From Candidatus Caccopulliclostridium gallistercoris (GTDB taxonomy: Bacteria > Bacillota > Clostridia > Christensenellales > UBA1242), in contig DVOJ01000006.1 of the NCBI GenBank assembly GCA_018713725.1, forward strand, positions 1 to 64,000: DNA of 64,000 nt, read 5' to 3'. Both the position numbers and the translations under genes were made by a program. Below the pieces are notes generated by a model. That model ran no database searches. It worked only from the letters and a program-made list of their open reading frames with translations, and was not told where the DNA came from. Positions 14,460-56,100 of this stretch are shown here, piece after piece (the stretch's first letter is position 1; the number at the start of each line of letters is the position of its first letter).

Positions 14460-14845
14460 AATTACTCCGCAAGCCCGACGGAGATCCTTCGGCTACGCTC
14501 AGGATGACGCAATGGGTTGCACCCATTTGCGTTGCAGCGGAGCAAAGCCTACGAAGAGCCTTTGCAAGTACCTTCGAAGACGCTAGCGAAGGCTTAACCC
14601 CGCTGTCATTCTGAGCAGCGAGCACCCAGCGTTAGCGGTGCGACTATCTGCGAAGAATCTCCTTGCCACCCTAGCTAGCGAGACTCCACCTTATCTTCGG
14701 TAGCCCTTACTTTCGTCACCCTGAGCGGAAGAAATCGTGTTAATTATCATTATTGCTAGACGTCACTTTTTCTTTACTAAATAAGCTAGTTTGCAGTCGA
14801 ACGGGTCTCCGTCGGGCTATACATTTTTGTAATTTCTGCTAGTTT
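14460..14845. repeat. Family A repeat cluster
   Basis: No gene is seen. Bases about 14472-14508 are the short form of family A (CCGACGGAGATCCTTCG...CGCTCAGGATGACG), followed by the small hairpin AATGGGTTGCACCCATT. Bases about 14708-14818 are a long arm in plus orientation. It runs CGTCACCCTGAGCGGAAG, TTGCTAGACGT and finally GTCGAACGGGTCTCC plus CGTCGGGCT, in the order seen in the right arm of the GIY-YIG cassette at 42963-43093. The central part has diverged. Confidence 0.7.
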
Positions 14846-15039: not shown

Positions 15040-15345
15040 TGTTTACTCAGTCTTTACTACCCAGATCCTTCGACTGCGCTCAGGATGACGAAAAAGAGAA
15101 ACTCTTTTTCGTTGCAACGGAGCATAACCGTTGCAAGAGTCTTCGAAGGCTCTTCGTAGGCTGTACCCCAACGCTATACAATTTTCTTCTTTTGCCCTAA
15201 CCCGCGGAAGCTACTCGCCCGCGAAGCTTTTGCCCCGTTGCCGTCATTCTGAGCGGACTCTATTTTCAATAAAAATCCCAAATATTGTTCAAAATATTGA
15301 ATATTTTATGCGGCAAAATTCAAAATGTTGAAATTAGTTTAAAAT
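15040..15345. repeat. Family A fragments upstream of the XRE gene
   Basis: A short-form family A copy (GATCCTTCGACTGCGCTCAG, about 15063-15091) is followed by AACTC/GAGTT and GTTGCAACGG/CCGTTGCAAG palindromes and a CGTCATTCTGAGCGG end near 15241-15257. No coding region is supported. The last 30 bases lead into the promoter at 15350. Confidence 0.6.
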
Positions 15346-17829: not shown

Positions 17830-18731
17830 TTGCAACACAAAAATAATATGTGGCGGGTCGCGGGAGGAGATTCATTCGCGGATAGTCGCACCGCTTACGC
17901 TGGGTGCTCGCCGCTCAGAATGACGAGAGCATTGCCTACGAAGACTTCTTCAGCGGATCTATCAGCGACACACTTCCGCCAGTTACCCGCGAAAGCTCTT
18001 CGTAGGCCATGCCCCGTTGCGACGCAAAAGGGCTCTACCTTTTGCGTCATTCTGAGCGAAAGAAATCTTGTTAAACACAGCTAATGCTAGACCTGTGTTT
18101 TATTTAATATTTTGTAATTGTGCAGTCGAACGAATCTCCTCCCGCGACCCGCCATAAATAAAATAGGACTCTCGCTAGCCCTAACCGCAAGGAGATCCTT
18201 CGCAAGAAAAATTTCTGCGTTTTTGGCGGGTTTGCTATTCGCAAACGCTCGCCTTTAACACTTGAAATTTTTCTTTTACGCACCAGACGCAAACTCCGCT
18301 TACGCTGGGAGTTATAATGGGGCCCCCGAAAATTTTTAATTTTTGGGGAAAGGAGAAACTGCGTAACCTTTTAGATAGTTGCGTTTAGCAACTTCTAGGG
18401 TGGAGCAAGTTTCGACGCACTCTCATGCGAAGTCAATGCTTCGAAGAAATTAGGGAGTTCCTCTTTCGGTCGAAATGACGGCTCGGAGCGCGCTGGAAAA
18501 TTAAAAAAAGCGAAGCCCTGCTTTCGTCATTTCGACCGGAAGAAATTTTTGCTTATAAACCTTATTTCACTTAATGCTAGACGTTAAATTTGTTTTGTTG
18601 CCCTAGTTAATATGAAGCGGAGAAATCTCGGCTACTTGTTAATTTAAAGTCTGGCTAATGCTCGCAGCGAAGCGAAGCCTTCGCAAGAATCTTCGAAGGC
18701 TCTCCAACGCACTACCCGCTCTATCTCCCCA
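17830..18731. repeat. 900-bp gene-free block of mixed family A, C and D repeats
   Basis: Seen in order: a GCGGGTCGCGGGAGGAGATTC end; palindromes around CTTCGTAGGC; and a family A long arm at about 18043-18150 (CATTCTGAGCGAAAG ... GCTAGACC ... GCAGTCGAACGAATCTCC). Next come a family D tail and stem (about 18195-18310), a family C copy in plus orientation (about 18322-18440), and a second, diverged family A arm (about 18525-18630). Several frames stay open across these repeats, but they have no start signals and match the same repeats elsewhere. I see no gene. Confidence 0.6.
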
Positions 18732-39767: not shown

Positions 39768-40837
39768 GCTCGTTACTTATAACGGCGCCGTCTGGCGTGT
39801 GGCCAACAATTATAAACGCCTTTGAAGCAGTTGGCAACTACGCTTGGGCTATTATACTACTCACAATTTGTATAAAGCTTGTAATGTCGCCCTTAGACTT
39901 TTTTAACAAAAAGATATCAAGAAAAAACGCACAGATTCAAGCCGTACTTGCGCCAGAAATGGCAAAAATTCAAAAGCAATACGGCCACGATAAGAACTTA
40001 TACAACCAAAAATTAAACGAACTCTATAAAAAGAATAATTTTAATATTTTTGGCTCGTGTATATTCATGCTTGTAAATTTCGTGCTAATTATCGTGATAT
40101 TCTTTACACTTTGGAATAGCTTAAATTCCATGGCAAACTACAAAATTGCAGACCAGTATAATCAGCTAGAAACGGTGTATTATCAAACGTATGACCAAAC
40201 TTCTGGCACAGACGAAGAAAAGGTATCAGCTGCAAACCAAGCCGTTGTAGTAAAATACGACGAGATTAAAGACAGTTGGCTTTGGATTGAAAGCGTATGG
40301 GTAAGCGAAACACCTTGGACGAACTCTATTCCAGACTTTAACGCCTATCTATCCATGATAGGAAATAAAGTGGACATTTTAAATACTGAAACGGGCGAAA
40401 TGGAGAGTGTGAATTTCTCCGACCTAACGGAAACAGAGCAAACGGAAATACAAAATAGATACAACACCGTAATGAATCCGCTTCGCGAGAGTACGGGCAG
40501 AGCAAACGGCTATCTAATTTTAGTAATCCTAGCCGTTGGAACGGCGTTCTTATCTCAGTTCTTAAATGCATACAGAGTAGGTAAAAAGACGAAATCTAGA
40601 AACGGAGATAGTCCAAAAAGTCAAGCTTCAAATAAAATTGTTATGATAATTTTACCTATAATTATGGGTATATTTACACTTTTCTACAACTCGATATTTG
40701 CCCTTTACATCATAACCAGCCAGCTTATATCAATAATAACCACGCCGCTTATAGACTTAATTCTAGATAAGGTAGAAGCTAGGGCTGAAAAGAAGAAGGA
40801 AGCAAAGGTAGTGGTAGATTATAGTAGGAAAAAGTAG
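39755..40837 (+). CDS. yidC: Membrane protein insertase YidC
   Basis: 360 residues. It inserts and folds membrane proteins with or after SecYEG. The core is present: a first segment near 20-45 (AWAIILLTICIKLVMSPL), a cytosolic Lys-rich hairpin (ISRKNAQIQAVLAPEMAKIQKQYG) and later segments near 95-120, 245-265 and 285-330. There is no lipoprotein signal, and an extra external stretch of about 100 residues (121-240) lies between the second and third segments, making it longer than the usual ~260 residues. AAAGGAGATACAAA precedes the ATG. Confidence 0.94.
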   Translation: MAFLSSLLITAPSGVWPTIINAFEAVGNYAWAIILLTICIKLVMSPLDFFNKKISRKNAQIQAVLAPEMAKIQKQYGHDKNLYNQKLNELYKKNNFNIFGSCIFMLVNFVLIIVIFFTLWNSLNSMANYKIADQYNQLETVYYQTYDQTSGTDEEKVSAANQAVVVKYDEIKDSWLWIESVWVSETPWTNSIPDFNAYLSMIGNKVDILNTETGEMESVNFSDLTETEQTEIQNRYNTVMNPLRESTGRANGYLILVILAVGTAFLSQFLNAYRVGKKTKSRNGDSPKSQASNKIVMIILPIIMGIFTLFYNSIFALYIITSQLISIITTPLIDLILDKVEARAEKKKEAKVVVDYSRKK

Positions 40838-40846
40838 GGGTGAAGT

Positions 40847-41647
40847 ATGATAGAATGTGAAGCTACTGGAAAAAACATAGAGCAGGCAATAACAAACGCA
40901 CTTTTCGAGCTTAAAGCCATGCGTGAAGATGTGGATATTAAAATTTTAGACCAAGGCGGATTTTTTAAAAAGGCAAGGGTCTACGTAAAAATTTCCGACG
41001 ACGCAATAGAAAAATATCAAAAGGTTAGAAAGCTTAAAGAAGAAGATAAAAAAGAAGAGATAGCGCGTGAAGAGAAAGAAGAACAGGCAGTAGAAGAGCC
41101 TAAAAAAGTAGAAGAAAAAAGAGAAATAAAAGAAAAACGCGAAGAAAAAATAGAAGAAAATAAAAGTAATGAATTAAACATAGAAAAGTTAAACGAAGCC
41201 GAGCGCGGTAAGAAGTTTATTGAAGGGCTTTTAAATGTACTTAACATAGACGGAAAGGTGCTTGTAGAAGAAAACGAAAGCGAAATTTTCTACGAAATTC
41301 AAGGGGAAAAGGTAAGCTCGCTAATCGGCTTTCGTGGAGACTGTTTAAATTCAATACAATATCTAATTAGCCTAATAAATTCTAAAAATAACAGGCATTC
41401 TAAAAAGGTAAGGCTAGATATAGACGGCTTTAAAGACAAGCGTAAAGCCAGCCTAGAAGCGCTTGCCGAGCGCATAGCTAAAAAGGTTTTAAAAACAAGA
41501 CATTCTTCTAAATTAGAGCCAATGACGGCATACGAAAGAAGGATTATTCACACAGTAATACAGAACTACGAAGAGCTTACAAGTTACAGCACTGGCGAAG
41601 AGCCTAATAGGTATCTAACCATTGCAATTAAAGAAACAGACAATTAA
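40847..41647 (+). CDS. khpB: RNA-binding protein KhpB (Jag/EloR)
   Basis: 266 residues. KhpB partners KhpA in RNA binding and in control of cell elongation. The N-terminal Jag domain (1-52, ending GGFFKKARVYVKIS) is followed by a Lys/Glu-rich linker (about 60-125). Then come a KH domain with SSLIGFRGDCLNSIQYL and a C-terminal R3H domain with EPMTAYERRIIHTVIQ. The order Jag_N-linker-KH-R3H is complete. It ends the rpmH-to-khpB unit, before a terminator. In many Firmicutes mnmE follows, but here mnmE is 17 kb away. Confidence 0.95.
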   Translation: MIECEATGKNIEQAITNALFELKAMREDVDIKILDQGGFFKKARVYVKISDDAIEKYQKVRKLKEEDKKEEIAREEKEEQAVEEPKKVEEKREIKEKREEKIEENKSNELNIEKLNEAERGKKFIEGLLNVLNIDGKVLVEENESEIFYEIQGEKVSSLIGFRGDCLNSIQYLISLINSKNNRHSKKVRLDIDGFKDKRKASLEALAERIAKKVLKTRHSSKLEPMTAYERRIIHTVIQNYEELTSYSTGEEPNRYLTIAIKETDN

Positions 41648-41672
41648 AAACTTCGTGATACTGCAAAATATT

Positions 41673-41707
41673 AAAACACTGTTTAATTTATTATAGCAGT
41701 GTTTTTT
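41673..41707 (+). terminator. Terminator after khpB
   Basis: Stem AAAACACTG (41673-41681) with CAGTGTTTT (41697-41705), followed by T. Confidence 0.85.
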
Positions 41708-41835
41708 AATTCCTTATAAACTTACAAAATTTTTATTTTAAAGTTGACATTTTATCTTAAAAGTTTTAATATAATAAAAGGAAGTTAAAGGGTTTCTTTA
41801 ATTATCTGCTAATTTTTAAAAAAGGAGATTAAAAA

Positions 41836-42057
41836 ATGGCAAAGAAGGGAGATTATTTTGGACTTAGTTACCTTGTAAGCGTTATACTTGCAATTATTCC
41901 AGTTACAGCATGGGTTTGCGGTTTTGTTACAAGATTTATGGAAGGCAAAATCGTAGCAGGTTTAATAAGGCTTATTTTTGGTTTCACTATCGTATGGATT
42001 TTAGACTTGATTTTTATGATAGTGTCTAAGCACATTTTACGTTTAATTCCGGTTTAA
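41836..42057 (+). CDS. Small two-pass membrane protein
   Basis: 73 residues with AAAAAGGAG before the ATG. Two hydrophobic segments (about 11-30 and 38-63) are separated by a short basic loop (TRFMEGK), suggesting a hairpin in the membrane. It resembles small TM2-like or YqaE-like proteins in size only; I do not assign a family. TTGACA at 41744 with a TATAAT at 41770 (spacing 20, longer than ideal) may be its promoter. Its stop codon lies inside the left terminal repeat of the family B element that follows. Confidence 0.6.
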   Translation: MAKKGDYFGLSYLVSVILAIIPVTAWVCGFVTRFMEGKIVAGLIRLIFGFTIVWILDLIFMIVSKHILRLIPV

Positions 42058-42185
42058 ACCATAAAAAAACTTCGCATAGCGTCGTTTACTGTAAAACGAG
42101 CCCAAACAGTCATGTACATTTTGGTACACTCCTGCTTGGGCTCATTTTACGAGCCTAGCTCTGCTCGTTTTTTTATGGTTTAAAC
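42052..42185. repeat. Family B element with perfect 19-bp terminal inverted repeats
   Basis: Bases 42052-42070 and 42167-42185 are exact inverted copies (GTTTAAACCATAAAAAAAC). Inside, GTAAAACGAGCCCAA pairs with TTGGGCTCATTTTAC (one mismatch), and the tip carries TGTAC/GTACA. It is 134 bp with no coding capacity. The left repeat contains the stop codon of the preceding gene. It may act as a terminator, a miniature transposable element, or both. A longer relative is at 55396-55630. Confidence 0.8.
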
Positions 42186-42495
42186 GGCTGTGCGTTCTTA
42201 TTTTTATGCGGCGCCTAGCGGCGTTTCTAAAAAACGGGGTCAGACAGTCACGTACGTCTATGTACGCTCCTACGTCAAAAGCTGCGCTTTAATGAATTTT
42301 GCTAAAAGCAAAATGTCATATTAACGCTTGCTTTTTCCTTCTCCCCAAAAATCAAAGTATTTTTGGGGACCCCGTAAATTTTTGAGCCTTGTATTGCTTT
42401 GTTTTTTTGTGTTTAAACGGCGGTACGTTTGAGCCTTGCTATGCACCACTTTTATGCGGTTTAAACGGCGGTACGTTGTTTAAAGTTTTGAAGGT
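42186..42495. repeat. Degraded family B/C repeat cluster
   Basis: TTTATGCGGCGCC and GGGTCAGACAGTCACGTACG, then GTCAAAAGCTGCGC and GAATTTTGCTAAAAGC. These are shared in the same order with the inner part of the 55.4-kb family B element. A short inverted family C hairpin follows at 42336-42375. GTTTAAACGGCGGTACGTT occurs twice (near 42413 and 42461). No gene. Confidence 0.55.
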
Positions 42496-42627
42496 CCGAC
42501 GGAGATCCGTTCGACTACATAATTGCTTTTATTAAAAAATAATAACTTAAACGTCTAGCAAAAAGCCGTGTTTAACATTTTTTCTTCCGCTCAGGATGAC
42601 GAAGGTAAGGGCTTCGAAGAAAGTTTA
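42496..42627 (-). repeat. Left inverted arm of the GIY-YIG element (family A)
   Basis: In order: CCGACGGAGATCCGTTCGACT; an AT-rich centre with AATTGCTTTTATT; ACGTCTAGCAA; TTCTTCCGCTCAGGATGACG; and CTTCGAAGAAA. The outer and inner ends alone, joined, form the short family A copies near 14.5, 15.1, 45.5 and 56.0 kb. Confidence 0.85.
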
Positions 42628-42635
42628 AAAATTTA

Positions 42636-42664
42636 TTTACTTTATTAATTTGCTTTAATATAAT
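42636..42664 (+). promoter_or_regulatory. Probable leaderless promoter of the GIY-YIG gene
   Basis: TTTACT (42636-42641), 17-base spacer, TATAAT (42659-42664), then 7 bases to the ATG at 42672. No ribosome binding site. It lies just inside the left arm. Confidence 0.7.
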
Positions 42665-42671
42665 ATTAAAT

Positions 42672-42965
42672 ATGAAAATTGGATATGTTTATATTTTATC
42701 AAATAAATATAATAATGTTTTTTATGTTGGAATAACTTCGGATATAAAAAAGAGAATCTATGAACATAAAAATCATATATTTAAAGGTTTTACACAAAAA
42801 TTCAATGTTAATAAAGTTCTGTATGTGGAAAGTACAAAATGTATTACGGATGCAATAAATAGAGAAAAACAATTAAAAAAATGGACAAGAGAAAAGAAAT
42901 TAGAATTAATAAAAAAAATAAACCCAGAATTAAAAGACCTATATAATGATATTTTAAGATCTTAA
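42672..42965 (+). CDS. GIY-YIG endonuclease domain protein
   Basis: 97 residues, a stand-alone GIY-YIG domain of the UvrC N-terminal/YhbQ type. The motif appears as GYVYILSN (residues 4-11) followed by FYVGITSDIKKRIYEHKNH (18-36), giving the two Tyr, the Arg (KKRIYEH) and His of the active site. The Glu on the later helix is in INREKQLKKW (about residues 62-71). There is no extra DNA-binding domain. It is alone between two 131-bp inverted arms and its stop codon falls in the right arm, so gene and repeats form one unit. By analogy with homing-type GIY-YIG enzymes it may nick or cut repeat ends; that is inference. Confidence 0.9.
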   Translation: MKIGYVYILSNKYNNVFYVGITSDIKKRIYEHKNHIFKGFTQKFNVNKVLYVESTKCITDAINREKQLKKWTREKKLELIKKINPELKDLYNDILRS

Positions 42966-43093
42966 ATTTTCTTCGAAGCTCTTACTTTCGTCATCCTGAG
43001 CGGAAGAAAAAATGTTAAAGACGGCTTTTGCTAGACGTTTAGGTTATTATTTTTTAATAAAAGCAATTATGTAGTCGAACGGATCTCCGTCGG
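42963..43093 (+). repeat. Right inverted arm of the GIY-YIG element (family A)
   Basis: The complement of the left arm, with about seven differences. Long solo copies in this orientation lie at about 14708-14818, 18043-18150 and 45245-45345. Confidence 0.85.
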
Positions 43094-43118
43094 GCTGACA
43101 AAAATTTAATTAAAAATA

Positions 43119-43222
43119 GGGGTCCCCAAAAATACTTTGATTTTTGGGGAAAGGAAAAGCCGCGGAGTGATATGCGCAGTTACGATAGTAACTCGCCTAG
43201 CGAAGCGTGCTTTGACGCGTCG
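43119..43222 (+). repeat. Family C repeat
   Basis: GGGGTCCCCAAAAATAC with ATTTTTGGGG, then AAAGGAAAAGCCGCGGAG and AGTTAC/GTAACT, ending GCTTTGACGCGTCGAACGG. Nearly the same as 424-518 and 56221-56330. It lies 26 bases outside the right arm of the GIY-YIG element. Confidence 0.75.
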
Positions 43223-43586
43223 AACGGATCTCCGCCAAGGCTGGCGAAGAGTTAAAGAAAAAATAAAGATTTCTGCCAAAGCAGACAAAATATTATTAAT
43301 TTATATTTCATTATTTTTTATTAATTAAATACCCCTTAAATATTAAAAAAAATCGCGTGTAAAATTTACACGCGAAATGCCTTAAACCCTTTTAATTATT
43401 AATAAAAACACGCGTGTGAAATTCACATGTTTTTGTTAATTTATAGTAATTTTTTGTTAATAATTATTATTTTTAATTCTTGTAATTTTTTTTATTTTAA
43501 ATTCTTCTTGTATTTTATAAATGTTTTATGCTATATTATATTAAACGTGTGAAAATCACACGCGCGGCTTCTTTTTTACAATAGGC
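43223..43586. other. AT-rich gap with three CGTGTGAAATTCACACG-type palindromes
   Basis: Palindromes near 43352-43377 (CGCGTGTAAAATTTACACGCG), 43409-43430 and 43545-43566, set in T-rich DNA. A matching hairpin (CGCGTGTGAATTTCACACGCG) lies at 53464. They may be terminators or protein-binding sites. No gene. Confidence 0.5.
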
Positions 43587-43615
43587 TTGACGAATTTTGT
43601 AAAAAATAGTATTAT
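43587..43615 (+). promoter_or_regulatory. Promoter of the Spo0A-C-like gene
   Basis: TTGACG (43587-43592), 17-base spacer, TATTAT (43610-43615). Confidence 0.6.
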
Positions 43616-43653
43616 CTTTACTGGAAACAAAGGGGTACGTTAAAAGGGGATTT

Positions 43654-43998
43654 ATGAATAAGGAAAAATTTAATGAAGAACAATTAGATTATTTGAACAA
43701 ACTTCTAGACGAACGCGGCTTAAACGTTAAATGGATAGGCAGACAGTATCTTGTAAATGTTGTGGAACTTGTGTTTTTTAATAGTAACTTAATGTTATCT
43801 TTTAATACAAAGGTATTTCCGGAAGTGGCAAAAATTTATGGCACAAAGGACATCAACGTGGAAAAGAGCGTTAGAAACGCAATTTTAAAATCTGAATACA
43901 AAAAGAATAACTACACCACAACAAAAATGTTCGTAATGGATTTAGTTCAAAAATTAAAATTATTTTCTCTTAATGGCTTAGCCGAGTTGACAAATTAA
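43654..43998 (+). CDS. Divergent Spo0A C-terminal-domain-like protein
   Basis: 114 residues, with AAAAGGGGATTT before the ATG. The pattern VFPEVAKIYGTKDINVEKSVRNAI (residues about 54-77) aligns by eye with LYPSIAEKFETSASKVERAIRHAI of the full Spo0A at 56753. The preceding GLNVKWIGRQYLVNVVELV aligns with GIPAHIKGYQFLREAIKMA. So the whole Spo0A-C six-helix domain seems present, without a receiver domain and with the recognition helix changed. It would be a DNA-binding protein outside the usual phosphorelay. It lies alone, 44 bases before the yqeY-like gene. Confidence 0.65.
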   Translation: MNKEKFNEEQLDYLNKLLDERGLNVKWIGRQYLVNVVELVFFNSNLMLSFNTKVFPEVAKIYGTKDINVEKSVRNAILKSEYKKNNYTTTKMFVMDLVQKLKLFSLNGLAELTN

Positions 43999-44042
43999 AT
44001 TGCACTAGATATAATTTCTTAAAACAAGTTTAAGGAGATGTT

Positions 44043-44468
44043 ATGATAGTTGAGGAAATAAAGAAGGCAAACGTTCAAGCGCTTAAAGATAAAAACGTGG
44101 TTTTAAGAAATATTTATAGCGTTGTGCTAAATAAAATTATGCTCGAAAGCATTAAAAAGAGAGAGAAGGGCGAAGAAATAACCGACCCTGACGTTGTTCA
44201 AATTCTTCAAAAGACAATTAAAGAGCTTACGGAAGAAAAGGAAAACTATTTAAAGGTTTCAAACACGGTTGAAGCCGGAAACATAGACGTTCAAATAGAC
44301 TGCCTTAAAGGCTATCTTCCAGAGATGCTATCCGAAGAGAAGATTAAGGAGATAATTTTAGGGCTTGAAGACAAGAGCATTGGCTCTGTTATGAAATTCT
44401 TCAAACAAGAATACAACGGCAAGTGCGACATGAACACAGTTAGAAACGTGCTTGCAAATTTAAAATGA
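44043..44468 (+). CDS. YqeY/GatB C-terminal-like protein
   Basis: 141 residues. The helical YqeY fold is related to the tail domain of GatB that recognises tRNA in amidotransferases. Family features are the alternating Lys/Glu helices, the ITDPDVVQILQKTIKELTEE block and the C-terminal NTVRNVLA helix. AAGGAGATGTT precedes the ATG. The last codons overlap the next gene (ATGA). Function in vivo is not established; tRNA-related chaperone or amidotransferase roles are suggested for the family. Confidence 0.88.
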   Translation: MIVEEIKKANVQALKDKNVVLRNIYSVVLNKIMLESIKKREKGEEITDPDVVQILQKTIKELTEEKENYLKVSNTVEAGNIDVQIDCLKGYLPEMLSEEKIKEIILGLEDKSIGSVMKFFKQEYNGKCDMNTVRNVLANLK

Positions 44469-45163
44469 AAATTTATGCTATATCCGACCTTCACTTGTCC
44501 TTTGGCTCCAACAAGCCAATGGACGTTTTTGGCGAGCAATGGAAGGACTATCTTTTAATTATAAAGGCGGATTGGCAAGAAAGGGTGAAGCCGGAAGACG
44601 TAGTGCTTGTGGCGGGCGATATTAGCTGGGCTATGCGCCTTGAAGACACGGAAGAAGATTTCAAATTTTTAGGCTCGCTAAACGGGCATATTTACATGAT
44701 TAAGGGTAATCACGACTATTGGTGGAACGGAATATCGTCCGTTAGGAAGGTGTTACCTGAAAATGTTACAGCAATTCAAAATGACGCCTTTAAAGCAGGA
44801 GACTACATTATTTGCGGCACTAGGGGTTGGGTTGTGCCAGAAACACCAAATGCCGGCAGCGAAGAAGATAAAAAGATATACGCGCGCGAGCAGATTAGGC
44901 TAGAACTTACGTTAAAGAGCGCGAAAGCACTTCAAAAAAATGGCGAAAAAATTATTTGTATGATGCACTATCCGCCAACGAACAGCGCATGGGACGATAG
45001 CGGCTTTACAAAGCTTTTTGAAGAGTACGGCGTGCAAGCCGTGGTGTACGGGCATTTGCACGGAAAGTATGTGAATAGAGAAAAGGTAAAAGAGAAAAAT
45101 GGTATAAAGTACTACTTAACGTCCTGCGACCAAGTGGGGAATAAGTTAGTGGAGATTGAATAG
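44465..45163 (+). CDS. Metallophosphoesterase
   Basis: 232 residues. The calcineurin-like five-motif set is complete: ISDLHLS (5-11), GDISWA (52-57), GNHDYWW, MHYPP and YGHLHG. The metal-binding Asp, His and Asn residues are all in place. It is cytosolic, with no signal peptide. Substrate unknown; related proteins hydrolyse phosphodiesters or phosphoproteins. The ATGA overlap with the YqeY-like gene indicates coupled translation. Repeat DNA of family A follows, with no clear terminator. Confidence 0.92.
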   Translation: MKIYAISDLHLSFGSNKPMDVFGEQWKDYLLIIKADWQERVKPEDVVLVAGDISWAMRLEDTEEDFKFLGSLNGHIYMIKGNHDYWWNGISSVRKVLPENVTAIQNDAFKAGDYIICGTRGWVVPETPNAGSEEDKKIYAREQIRLELTLKSAKALQKNGEKIICMMHYPPTNSAWDDSGFTKLFEEYGVQAVVYGHLHGKYVNREKVKEKNGIKYYLTSCDQVGNKLVEIE

Positions 45164-45669
45164 AAAAAATTAGACTGTGTCTCGCGTCATAGCGGAGTAA
45201 AGTTTACGAAGAGTCTTCGAAGACTCTTGCAACGCCTAACCTTACTCTCGTCATCCTGAGCGAAAGGAAAGATGTTAAATGTGGATTTTGCTAGATGGTT
45301 TGCTTGAATTTGTAGCTTAGTTTATATGCAGTCGAATGGATCTTGGTACTTATGTTAACTTTTCTTTTATGGCTTGCAGAGTTTTTAAAGTTTTCATTTT
45401 GTTAGGTTTAGCTTTACAAACTCTACGAACCATAATTATAAAAAAACTGCAACAGCAGGATCCTTCGACTCCGCTCAGGATGACGAAAGCGGGGCGCTGG
45501 GGTTTAATGATAGTGGAGTAAGGCTAACGCAATAGCCTTCGAAGGCAAGCGAGCGTAGCACGGTGCTGACAGAGCAATCACAAGAGCCTTCGCGGGTAAG
45601 AGGCATAGCCTTCATTAATAAAAACATAAATTTTACGACAAGATTACTAAACATTTATGGCATCTTTCC
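45164..45669. repeat. Family A repeat cluster
   Basis: A long arm in plus orientation (about 45245-45345) has CGTCATCCTGAGCGAAAG, TTGCTAGATGG and GCAGTCGAATGGATC. A short-form copy at about 45469-45497 reads GATCCTTCGACTCCGCTCAG and GATGACG. TCTTCGAAGACTCTTGCAACG-type palindromes flank both. The ~120 bases between them hold no gene. Confidence 0.65.
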
Positions 45670-45698
45670 TTGATATTTTAATATATTTTTGTTAAAAT
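45670..45698 (+). promoter_or_regulatory. Promoter of the giant CvpA-like gene
   Basis: TTGATA (45670-45675), 17-base spacer, TAAAAT (45693-45698), followed by AAAGGAG and the ATG. Confidence 0.65.
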
Positions 45699-45716
45699 AA
45701 CCGAAAGGAGATTTTT

Positions 45717-48700
45717 ATGAGCGCTGGGCTTATCACTTTAATTGCAAATTTAGTTCTTTTGTTCTTCGTTTTAATGGGCTTTTTAGACGGACTTAGAAAA
45801 GGCTTAAAAAAACAAGCACTTTGGCTTGCCTTCTTTACGGGCGCAATTGTGCTTGCCTTTATCTTTACTCCGCTTATCACAAACGGAATAATTGATATTA
45901 GCTTTAATATCGACGGGCAAAATCAGTCTCTTCGCGATATGATTGTAAACATGATAACGCAGCAGGAAATTGTTGGCGGCTTGTACCAAGAAGGTTCGTC
46001 ATTTGCCGGCATTGTGGATAACTTTCCTGTTATGGTAGCAAACCTTGTAGTGTTTGTGCTAGCACTCTACGTTTTCCTATTCTTAATGTGGATAGCTTAC
46101 CTTATTGTTGCTGCCATTGTGTTTAGAAAGAAGAAAAGCTTAAATGGCAAGGTGTACACAATTAAAGAAGGTCAAGCGGTGGAGCTTATAGATAAAAAAC
46201 CTAAAAAATATAGGCTTTGGGGCGCGCTTATTGGAATAGTTCCGGGCTTTCTTCTCTGCTTCTTTACACTTCTTCCAGTTTCTGGTTTAGTTGGAATTTA
46301 CACGGACGCGTCAAACGCCCAAGTGGTGTATGCAGAAGATAGCGAAACGGCTGTTCAAAAATTGCTTAACGAGTATATCCCAGAAGAGTACAGAGCGTAC
46401 ATCGATGCCTATAATGGCACAATTATAAACGTAGTGGGCGGCGCTATCGGCTTCGACGACTTCTGTTTTAACGGCCTTGCGTCTATGAATGTGAACGGCA
46501 GCAAGATTGTTTTAAGAAATGAAATAGTAACCTTTGCCGAAGTGTACGATTCCGTGGAATTTTTAACCACGCTAGACTTTGAAAACATGGATTGGAAAAC
46601 GTTAAACTTCACAAGGCTTAATAAGGCGGTGGATTTAATATTTGAATCCGAGTTATTTAGAAGTTTAAGCGCAGAAGTTATTCCTTATGCCTTAGATTAT
46701 ATAGAAACTAGCGACGTGTTAGACGGCACAGAATATAAAAGCCAAATTTTAGAACTTACAAACGCGCTTAAAGTTGGCTTTGGCGACAAGGTGGAAGCCG
46801 AAGTTTTAAAAACAGACTTTAAAAGCATTTTAAGCGTTTTTGAAACCATGTGCGAAAGCGGAATTATGGACGAACTTACGGCGGATACAATTGAACTAGA
46901 CGTGGTTTTAGATACTTTAATTGCGGAAAACAATAAAAATCTAAATGATATATTAAATAATTTCTTCCAATCTAACGTAGTTAAAAGCTTGCTTGTGGGC
47001 GCTATAAATATTGGCTTAGACGCCTTTGAAGACACCTTGCCACAAGGCACAAATCTAGATAGGGTAGACGTAAGCAAAGTGGAGTGGTCTACGTTTAGAA
47101 ATGAGATTAACACCATAGTAAATAGCGGTGTTGAAGTGTATAAAGTTTTAAAGGACTCCGAGTACAGTATAGACCAAATTTCCGCGGACTTAAAACTTGT
47201 ATATGAATTAAATTATCAAAATCTAGTTACGCAAGCCTTCAAAATTTTGGACACAGCTAGCACAACTACAATATTTAAAAATACGGTAAACGGCACGAAT
47301 ATCTACGATAACCTTTTAAATGCCGCAAGAGATACCGAACTTGGCACATATTTAAACGTGGACGCCTTGAAGAGCGACAAGAACTTCTCTTGGAACGAGC
47401 TCACGCAGCCAGTTGTGAACCTTTTAAGAGAAACTGAGCCTATTGTGCGTCAGACGGCGGAATTTAGCACGCTTAACTACACAAGTTTAAAGGCGAGCGT
47501 AACCGCGCTGTTCGATTCTAATTTATTCGACGCGGTTAATATGAACGTTTTAGATAAGTTCTCCGATTCCTTTGCTAGCATTGAAGACCAAGACGTAAAA
47601 AATCTTCTAGACGGCATAGTAAGCGACATGAAAGAAAAGGACAGCTTTACCGAGCTTGAAGCAGACGTTATGAGCCTTCTAGACGTGTTCGAAATTTGCG
47701 GAATGGCGGAGCTTTTAGACCAAATGGTAGACGGCAACGTGAACTTTGCCACTGTTGTTAGGAACTTAGGCGAAGAAGTTTCCGGCAAAAAGCAGTACGA
47801 AAGTTTAATTGAAAGCTTCCTATCTTCTCCAATTCTTAAAAACACCTTTATTAGTGCTATGAACGTAGTTGTAGGCGTGGTAGAAGACGGACTTGAAATT
47901 ACTTTAAATAGAATTGAGCCTAAGACGCAAGATTGGAGCGGTTGGGAGAACTTAGAAAGCGGCGTTAAGACAATGTTTGGCGAACTAAGCGAAGTTGTTT
48001 TAGCCTACGAAGGCGAAGAGCTGGTGTTTGATATAACAATGCTAGACGAAAACTTTATCTCTTGCATAGACAACTTTGGCGGCGCGCTAGACGCCTTTGC
48101 AACGCTTCCAGTTTGGAGCTATGAAGGTGGAAATATTTACGACGACATAATTATAGCCCTAGAAAACAAGGAAGGCTTAGGCGAGTTTATAAACTTCGGC
48201 GCAGCTAAACTTGAAAACTTCGTGGGCGGCGAATTTTGGAGCATAGAATTAAACGCTTACAAAACCTCACTTGAAAGGCTTATTAGCAAAACTATAACGC
48301 TTGACGGCGAAGAAAAGAACCTTTTAACAGCCATATTAGACGGCGGCGACATTACGGAAATTGTTAAGACGTTCACCACGGAAGACACGGACGTAACTAA
48401 CGATGTGGACACAATTATGAAGCCGATATTAGAGCGACAGCTCTTTAAAAAGCTAGCCATAATGGTGTTAGACGAACTTAACTTCCAGGTTGAAAAGATA
48501 ACCAACGAGAGCGTTACAGAAGACACATCCACACTTACAAAAATACCTTTTGAAACGGATTTAGCTGCACAAAGCACGGACATTTTAACAGTTATTAAGG
48601 AAGCTATTAAGGCTATAACGCTAGAAAATCCGGAAATTTCAGATTATAGACCGCTTCTAAACGCATTAAAAACAAACGCTGAAAACACCTACAACGGCTC

Positions 48701-55789: not shown

Positions 55790-56100
55790 AATGCTTCAAA
55801 GTCTCTTGCGAAGGCTTGCTCCGCTGCGACGAAAAAGGCTCTCTTTTTTCGTCATTCTGAGCGGCGAGTGTTTTAACACGACAATCCGCGAAGAATCTCC
55901 TTGCCGCCCGAGCTAGCGAGACTCGTATATGAAGTAGTTAAAAAATTTTATTTACTTTATTTTTAACTCCGCTGGCCCGACGGAGACCCGTTCGACTGCG
56001 CGCTTGCGCGCTCCGCTCAGGGTGACGCAATGGGTTGTACCCATTTGAGTCGCAGCGGGGGGGGTGCCGTTGCAAGAGACTTCGAAGAACATTCTCATAT
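55790..56100. repeat. Family A cluster
   Basis: CTTGCGAAGGCTTGCTCCG, TCGTCATTCTGAGCGGCGAG, then a short-form family A copy at about 55978-56026 (CCGACGGAGACCCGTTCGACT...CGCTCAGGGTGACG). The ATGGGTTGTACCCAT hairpin and a G run follow. The same order is found at 14472-14540. No gene. Confidence 0.6.

Follow-up and report, generated by a model that had tools for sequence, protein, structure and literature searches.

The window analysed here, a 64,000-nucleotide stretch of contig C16 in a draft genome of 1.12 Mb, carries a small GIY-YIG nuclease gene between inverted repeats. We consider it probable (roughly 0.7) that this is a single instance of a selfish unit with a very wide distribution, namely a GIY-YIG gene bounded by inverted CGTC REPs, and that the nuclease serves these REPs as their dedicated partner. 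CGTC REPs were described by Di Nocera et al. (2013) as repeats with a CGTC tag, an AT-initiated stem and a short tail; they were reported in five phyla and "apparently lack a dedicated transposase" (PMC3733652). Their spread is probably the work of the GIY-YIG nuclease, which would fill this long-standing gap: our searches revealed an association between gene and REP in at least 22 phyla and none at the tested paralogues, together with matched REP pairs, a common polarity of gene-less dimers and gene units, and variable occupancy of orthologous sites. Bacterial palindromic repeats include two large superfamilies; the one that still had no enzyme in 2013 now has a specific candidate, which would explain why CGTC repeats occur in so many phyla. 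The finding also suggests a function for the very common "GIY-YIG nuclease family protein", and that a minimal nuclease domain is able to drive repeat spread. With less assurance, we lean towards the broader view that a GIY-YIG nuclease under 100 residues long suffices to spread CGTC palindromes, without any transposase, recombinase or reverse transcriptase; the unit would then be a previously unrecognised kind of mobile element and rank among the bacterial selfish units with the widest phylogenetic range. No description of the link between GIY-YIG genes and CGTC REPs was found in the literature searched, which included later work that cites Di Nocera 2013; the search did not extend to preprints or the majority of subscription journals, and an earlier description cannot be excluded.

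A nuclease gene between inverted arms

The gene (42672-42965, + strand; 97 residues, Pfam PF01541 at E=1.4e-17) encodes a putative nuclease whose fold, to judge from the sequence, is clearly GIY-YIG. The protein has the superfamily hallmarks (the Tyr residues of GIY and YIG, the Arg, the Glu and the domain profile), and of its catalytic positions Y7, Y18, G20, R28, E65 and N84 never vary among 30 relatives, while H32 hardly does. The gene lies between a left arm (42496-42628, - strand), a long CGTC-type REP with orphan copies elsewhere, and a right arm (42962-43093, + strand) that is its inverted copy, with 127 of 133 aligned positions identical (95%); the TAA stop codon (42963-42965) falls inside the right arm. 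The first-pass annotation, which had described a stand-alone GIY-YIG gene between inverted arms and ending in the right one, was thus correct on both points. Terminal inverted repeats around an enzyme gene, a feature of insertion sequences and transposons, are present here. A phage origin was rejected, there being no relative among 50,697 phage records at E<=1e-5, and so was a reading as an RNA family, Rfam having no match across 40000-47000 of the window.

Read outward from the gene, the arm sequence runs CGTCATCCTGAGCGGAAG...GTCGAACGGATCTC, and the arms show the CGTC tag at one end as CGTCATCC. The conserved ends are GTC-AT...AT-C[TC] rather than the inner CTTCGAAG palindrome, with a pyrimidine before the GTC in most copies. 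These ends read GTCATCC...GGATCTC both in the left arm (42600-42502, - strand) and in the right (42990-43087, + strand), and their pairing covaries among the window copies, being ATCC/GGAT in the unit, ACCC/GGGT at 14715 and 56026, and ATTC/GAAT at 18046. Because the covarying paired ends, the tag and the tail together make up the signature given in PMC3733652, we assign the arms to the known CGTC REP class, as members specific to this lineage. Compared with the usual unit, the window copy is atypical, with long arms (~98 nt from tag to tail, with a weak stem) and tags that face inward, toward the gene, versus the usual outward polarity. A stem of 8-9 bp with a loop of 4-5 nt fits many relatives (e.g., GTCATTCCCGCGAAAGCGGGAATCCA) but not the window arms, and strong single-strand folding of the long arm was rejected, the arm folding no better as DNA than shuffled sequences do (z=-0.81). 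The window copy may be a rearranged member of the class; the argument for the class rests on relatives.

The lone arms and shortened forms reported in the first pass were all recovered. Three full-length orphan arms, with blastn E-values of 1e-20 to 1e-11, lie on the + strand at 14694-14815 (E=1.7e-20; compensated ends GTCACCC...GGGTCTC, 14715-14809), 18036-18139 (E=1.3e-13; compensated ends GTCATTC...GAATCTC, 18046-18138) and 45240-45343 (E=6.7e-12; GTCATCC...GGATCTT, 45250-45344). The shortened forms near 14.5, 15.1, 45.5 and 56.0 kb correspond to CGTC REPs on the - strand, namely two of 28 nt at 14481-14508 and 15062-15089, one at about 45460-45484 (left end approximate, tag found) near the orphan arm at 45240, and one at 55983-56026 with compensated ends GTCACCC...GGGTCTC. 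Further CGTC REPs are found at 14605-14661 (+ strand, 57 nt, GTCATTC...GAATCTC), 17867-17924 (- strand, 58 nt) and 55851-55899 (+ strand), the last having an identical copy at contig positions 64784-64832, outside the window.

There are two further GIY-YIG copies in the same genome, on C15 (61% identity) and C13 (53%), and the REPs beside all three copies, whose loops are longer or stems mismatched, escaped our strict REP finder. On C15, a gene-less stretch (about L012 1532-1605) retains the leader and start codon of the gene, with identity at 58 of 71 aligned positions, joined to a REP end. Another palindromic repeat, TCCCCAAAAATCAAAGTATTTTTGGGGA, sits on both sides of the window unit (42342-42369 and 43123-43150) and also inside the long CGTC REP of the C13 locus (L011, about 1243-1273), a placement that looks as if REP loops acquire other repeats.

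REPs beside GIY-YIG genes across phyla

We surveyed 80 GIY-YIG relatives with up to 10 kb of flank in species-representative genomes, picked by protein alignment alone; these are the top 80 among 560 or more candidates and thus a non-random sample, in whose selection REPs had no part, and they fall in 22 named phyla, 11 loci having no phylum name. With a REP defined as GTC-AT plus 3 nt, followed by the reverse complement and AT-C[TC], a CGTC REP was identified within 300 nt of the gene in 72 of the 80 loci and on both sides in 50. Against this, the density measured on these contigs at distances above 1 kb from the gene (0.108 per kb) predicts 0.065 REPs per locus. The paired form AT+stem...stem'+AT with a tail of CC or CT was present in 72/80 loci. 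When structure and tail were held constant and all 64 possible tags were tried, GTC was the only enriched tag, with 181 hairpins beside genes versus 9 for the runner-up. The commonest unit consists of a REP(+), ~20 nt, the gene from ATG to stop, ~5 nt and a REP(-), with tags outward, tails inward and the stop codon often within or near the REP; loci whose nearest REPs have inward tags are a minority among the 80.

As a paralogue control we used 249 genomes of the window's phylum, in which profile matches fall into a strong group (E<1e-35) and a weak one (about E=1e-13 or weaker). The weak group is apparently the UPF0213 or COG2827 type, a likewise minimal, single-domain GIY-YIG family to which the solved structures nearest in sequence (PDB 1zg2 and 1ywl) belong. 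It scores E of about 1e-13 or weaker versus 1e-37 or better for the REP-linked family, and none of 25 weak-group loci had a CGTC REP within 300 nt. Such a REP is present at L128, L130 and L131 of the strong group, and L129 has a nearby ACCC/GGGT variant. In the same phylum, three GIY-YIG matches of equal score (G179:C1 83337, 376730 and 446154) each contain two in-frame TAG codons.

At the level of whole genomes, REPs follow the gene. Within the window's family, two or more REPs of the searched type occur in five of six gene-positive versus one of 30 gene-negative genomes (Fisher p=9e-5), and among 200 Flavobacteriaceae the gene is present in 16 of 19 REP-positive genomes versus 90 of 200 overall (p=3e-4); these p-values are indicative, since not all REP types are covered (the Flavobacteriaceae pattern misses the TCCT stem type, which undercounts REP-positive genomes) and the genomes are related and often drafts. 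Arms equally common without the gene, which the first pass had named as evidence against its proposal, were not found outright, with few exceptions such as G034 and G358, which have REPs and no detected gene.

The two REPs of a unit are often a matched pair. At 22 of 39 loci the left and right REPs have an identical 4-nt stem, versus 5.7 in shuffles, an excess that is modest when shuffling is kept within phyla (mean 14.8, maximum 23), and the two often differ solely at the first stem base, with the partner base changed too. The flavobacterium G365 has eight copies of the gene, and REP types differ among the seven of these loci that we examined, several occurring as matching inverted pairs (e.g., TCCTGC, TCCGCA and TTTCCGC). 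Moreover, REP type co-diversifies with the nuclease: on the nuclease tree, stem class (xCCx, GCG or CTG-like) changes 14 times, versus 34.0 when labels are shuffled freely and 28.4 (sd 2.1) when they are shuffled within phyla, where none of 500 shuffles was as low as 14. Close REP pairs that lack the gene in genome G313 have outward tags in 12 of 13 cases with spacers of 9-29 nt, which is the usual polarity of the gene units, and sequence conservation fades right outside the tag. As gene-less dimers share this polarity, the REP dimer would be the unit minus the gene, as REPINs are to RAYT units. The first-pass idea of an autonomous element with non-autonomous derivatives, resembling REPs and their transposase, is therefore supported and extends far beyond this genome.

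Occupied and empty sites

The site of the window unit can be recognized in four congeners (G004, G001, G003 and G005), where the adjacent small gene lies about 250-434 nt from the 43654 gene, with neither the nuclease gene nor a REP between them; the first pass had regarded an arm pair conserved at this exact locus in distant relatives as a counter-argument, and that pattern was not found outright. In Azospirillum lipoferum a unit lies between sufB and sufC, a gap that contains neither gene nor REP in five other Azospirillum. In Shinella PSBB067 this gap is taken by a unit of another kind, which shows 44% identity to the L105 query and for this reason is probably a separate insertion, and in a Sphingomonas parapaucimobilis plasmid the gap holds a DUF559-family gene (L256 926-1336). 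Sphingobium plasmids provide four distinct occupied alleles (seven records) versus four empty ones, two of which keep a solo REP that joins the outer halves of both unit REPs. On the Sphingobium TomTYG72 plasmid (L122), another palindromic repeat fills the GIY-YIG site in the gap between fnrL and a response regulator gene. Empty sites were too diverged for a target-site duplication or exact junction to be read at the Azospirillum, Sphingobium and window sites, the region of the near-identical copies in G496 was too repeat-rich for unit ends to be read, and beyond the gene site the Sphingobium plasmids had too few REPs for insertion polymorphism to be compared. Some copies seem to be inherited in place, as a copy directly after an apparent argS is common to G000 (C13:15427-15714, L010) and G004 (C1:101416-101700, L026); this copy seems to have stayed where it was rather than to have moved recently.

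DNA cleavage, its substrate (a single-stranded hairpin, a cruciform or a duplex), mobilisation and the copying route are what we infer from these patterns. The nuclease would recognise the REP hairpin by its conserved GTC tag, paired AT+stem and AT-C[TC] tail and would cut near the tag, after which repair or replication would copy the unit, or a gene-less REP dimer, into new intergenic sites; orphan REPs and dimers would be gene-less derivatives of the unit. GIY-YIG enzymes are not known to join strands, so host repair would have to supply that step.

The main rival to a nuclease that spreads its own REPs is homing, whereby REPs spread by other means and the GIY-YIG endonuclease cuts REPs or the dimer spacer and is copied in by repair without mobilising them. 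The two Sphingobium sites that hold a solo REP at the same position fit this idea (deletion between the REPs would fit too), and a gene within a REP dimer would give the identical polarity; the REP-free empty sites of the five Azospirillum and the window's four congeners do not fit. Homing enzymes cut uninterrupted sites only, and this limit on cutting also speaks against the idea, as does the way REP presence tracks the gene. Although GIY-YIG proteins include classic homing nucleases (PMC1564403), no other enzyme that moves CGTC REPs has been found (PMC3733652), and on balance we judge homing to be unlikely.

Very much less probable is a host function in which a structure-specific nuclease trims or resolves REP hairpins, the REPs being non-selfish regulatory or processing sites. 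There are precedents in the structure-specific GIY-YIG repair enzymes Slx1 and UvrC (PMC1564403), in the proposal that REPs influence transcript ends (PMC3733652) and in the description of TnpA-REP as a domesticated transposase (PMC8266576); however, the patchy presence of the gene (12 of 60 relatives), its copy number (at most 14 per genome, in one flavobacterium), its independent insertions and its empty sites better fit a mobile unit. That a mobile gene gathers by chance in insertion-tolerant, REP-rich intergenic regions, as insertion sequences known to target REPs (PMC1525189) and the other repeats at some sites might suggest, is already disfavoured and hardly credible given the clear REP excess over the same-contig background, the frequently tight spacing (about 20 nt before the ATG and about 5 nt after the stop), the matched inverted pairs, the co-diversification and the lack of REPs at paralogues.

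Relation to known systems

The proposed selfish GIY-YIG unit shares with GIY-YIG homing endonucleases of the I-TevI type its catalytic domain and mobile-gene behaviour, and differs from them in that the gene has neither a DNA-binding extension nor an intron and is flanked by its own inverted palindromes. Its closest analogy is to RAYT/TnpA-REP, the HUH transposase that serves GTAG REPs (PMC8266576, PMC3733652): as in those REPtrons and REPINs, a small gene lies between inverted palindromic repeats with one tagged end, gene-less repeats and dimers are many, and enzyme and repeat co-evolve (PMC8266576, PMC3733652). In contrast to RAYT, the enzyme here, shorter than 100 residues, belongs to the GIY-YIG nucleases and bears no relation to HUH transposases, the tag is CGTC rather than GTAG, and the range of phyla is far wider. 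The window protein matched only GIY-YIG-type profiles and one weak unrelated profile, and the HUH motif and catalytic Tyr of IS200/IS605 are absent from it; by analogy, the nuclease would work like RAYT without being a RAYT. The REPs themselves resemble the CGTC superfamily of Di Nocera 2013 in their CGTC tag, paired AT at the stem base, short tail and inverted dimers. To that class, described from five phyla and with no enzyme, our analysis adds longer or weaker-stemmed forms (GTCATTGCGAG..., GTCATTCTGAG...), a range of at least 22 phyla and a candidate GIY-YIG partner.
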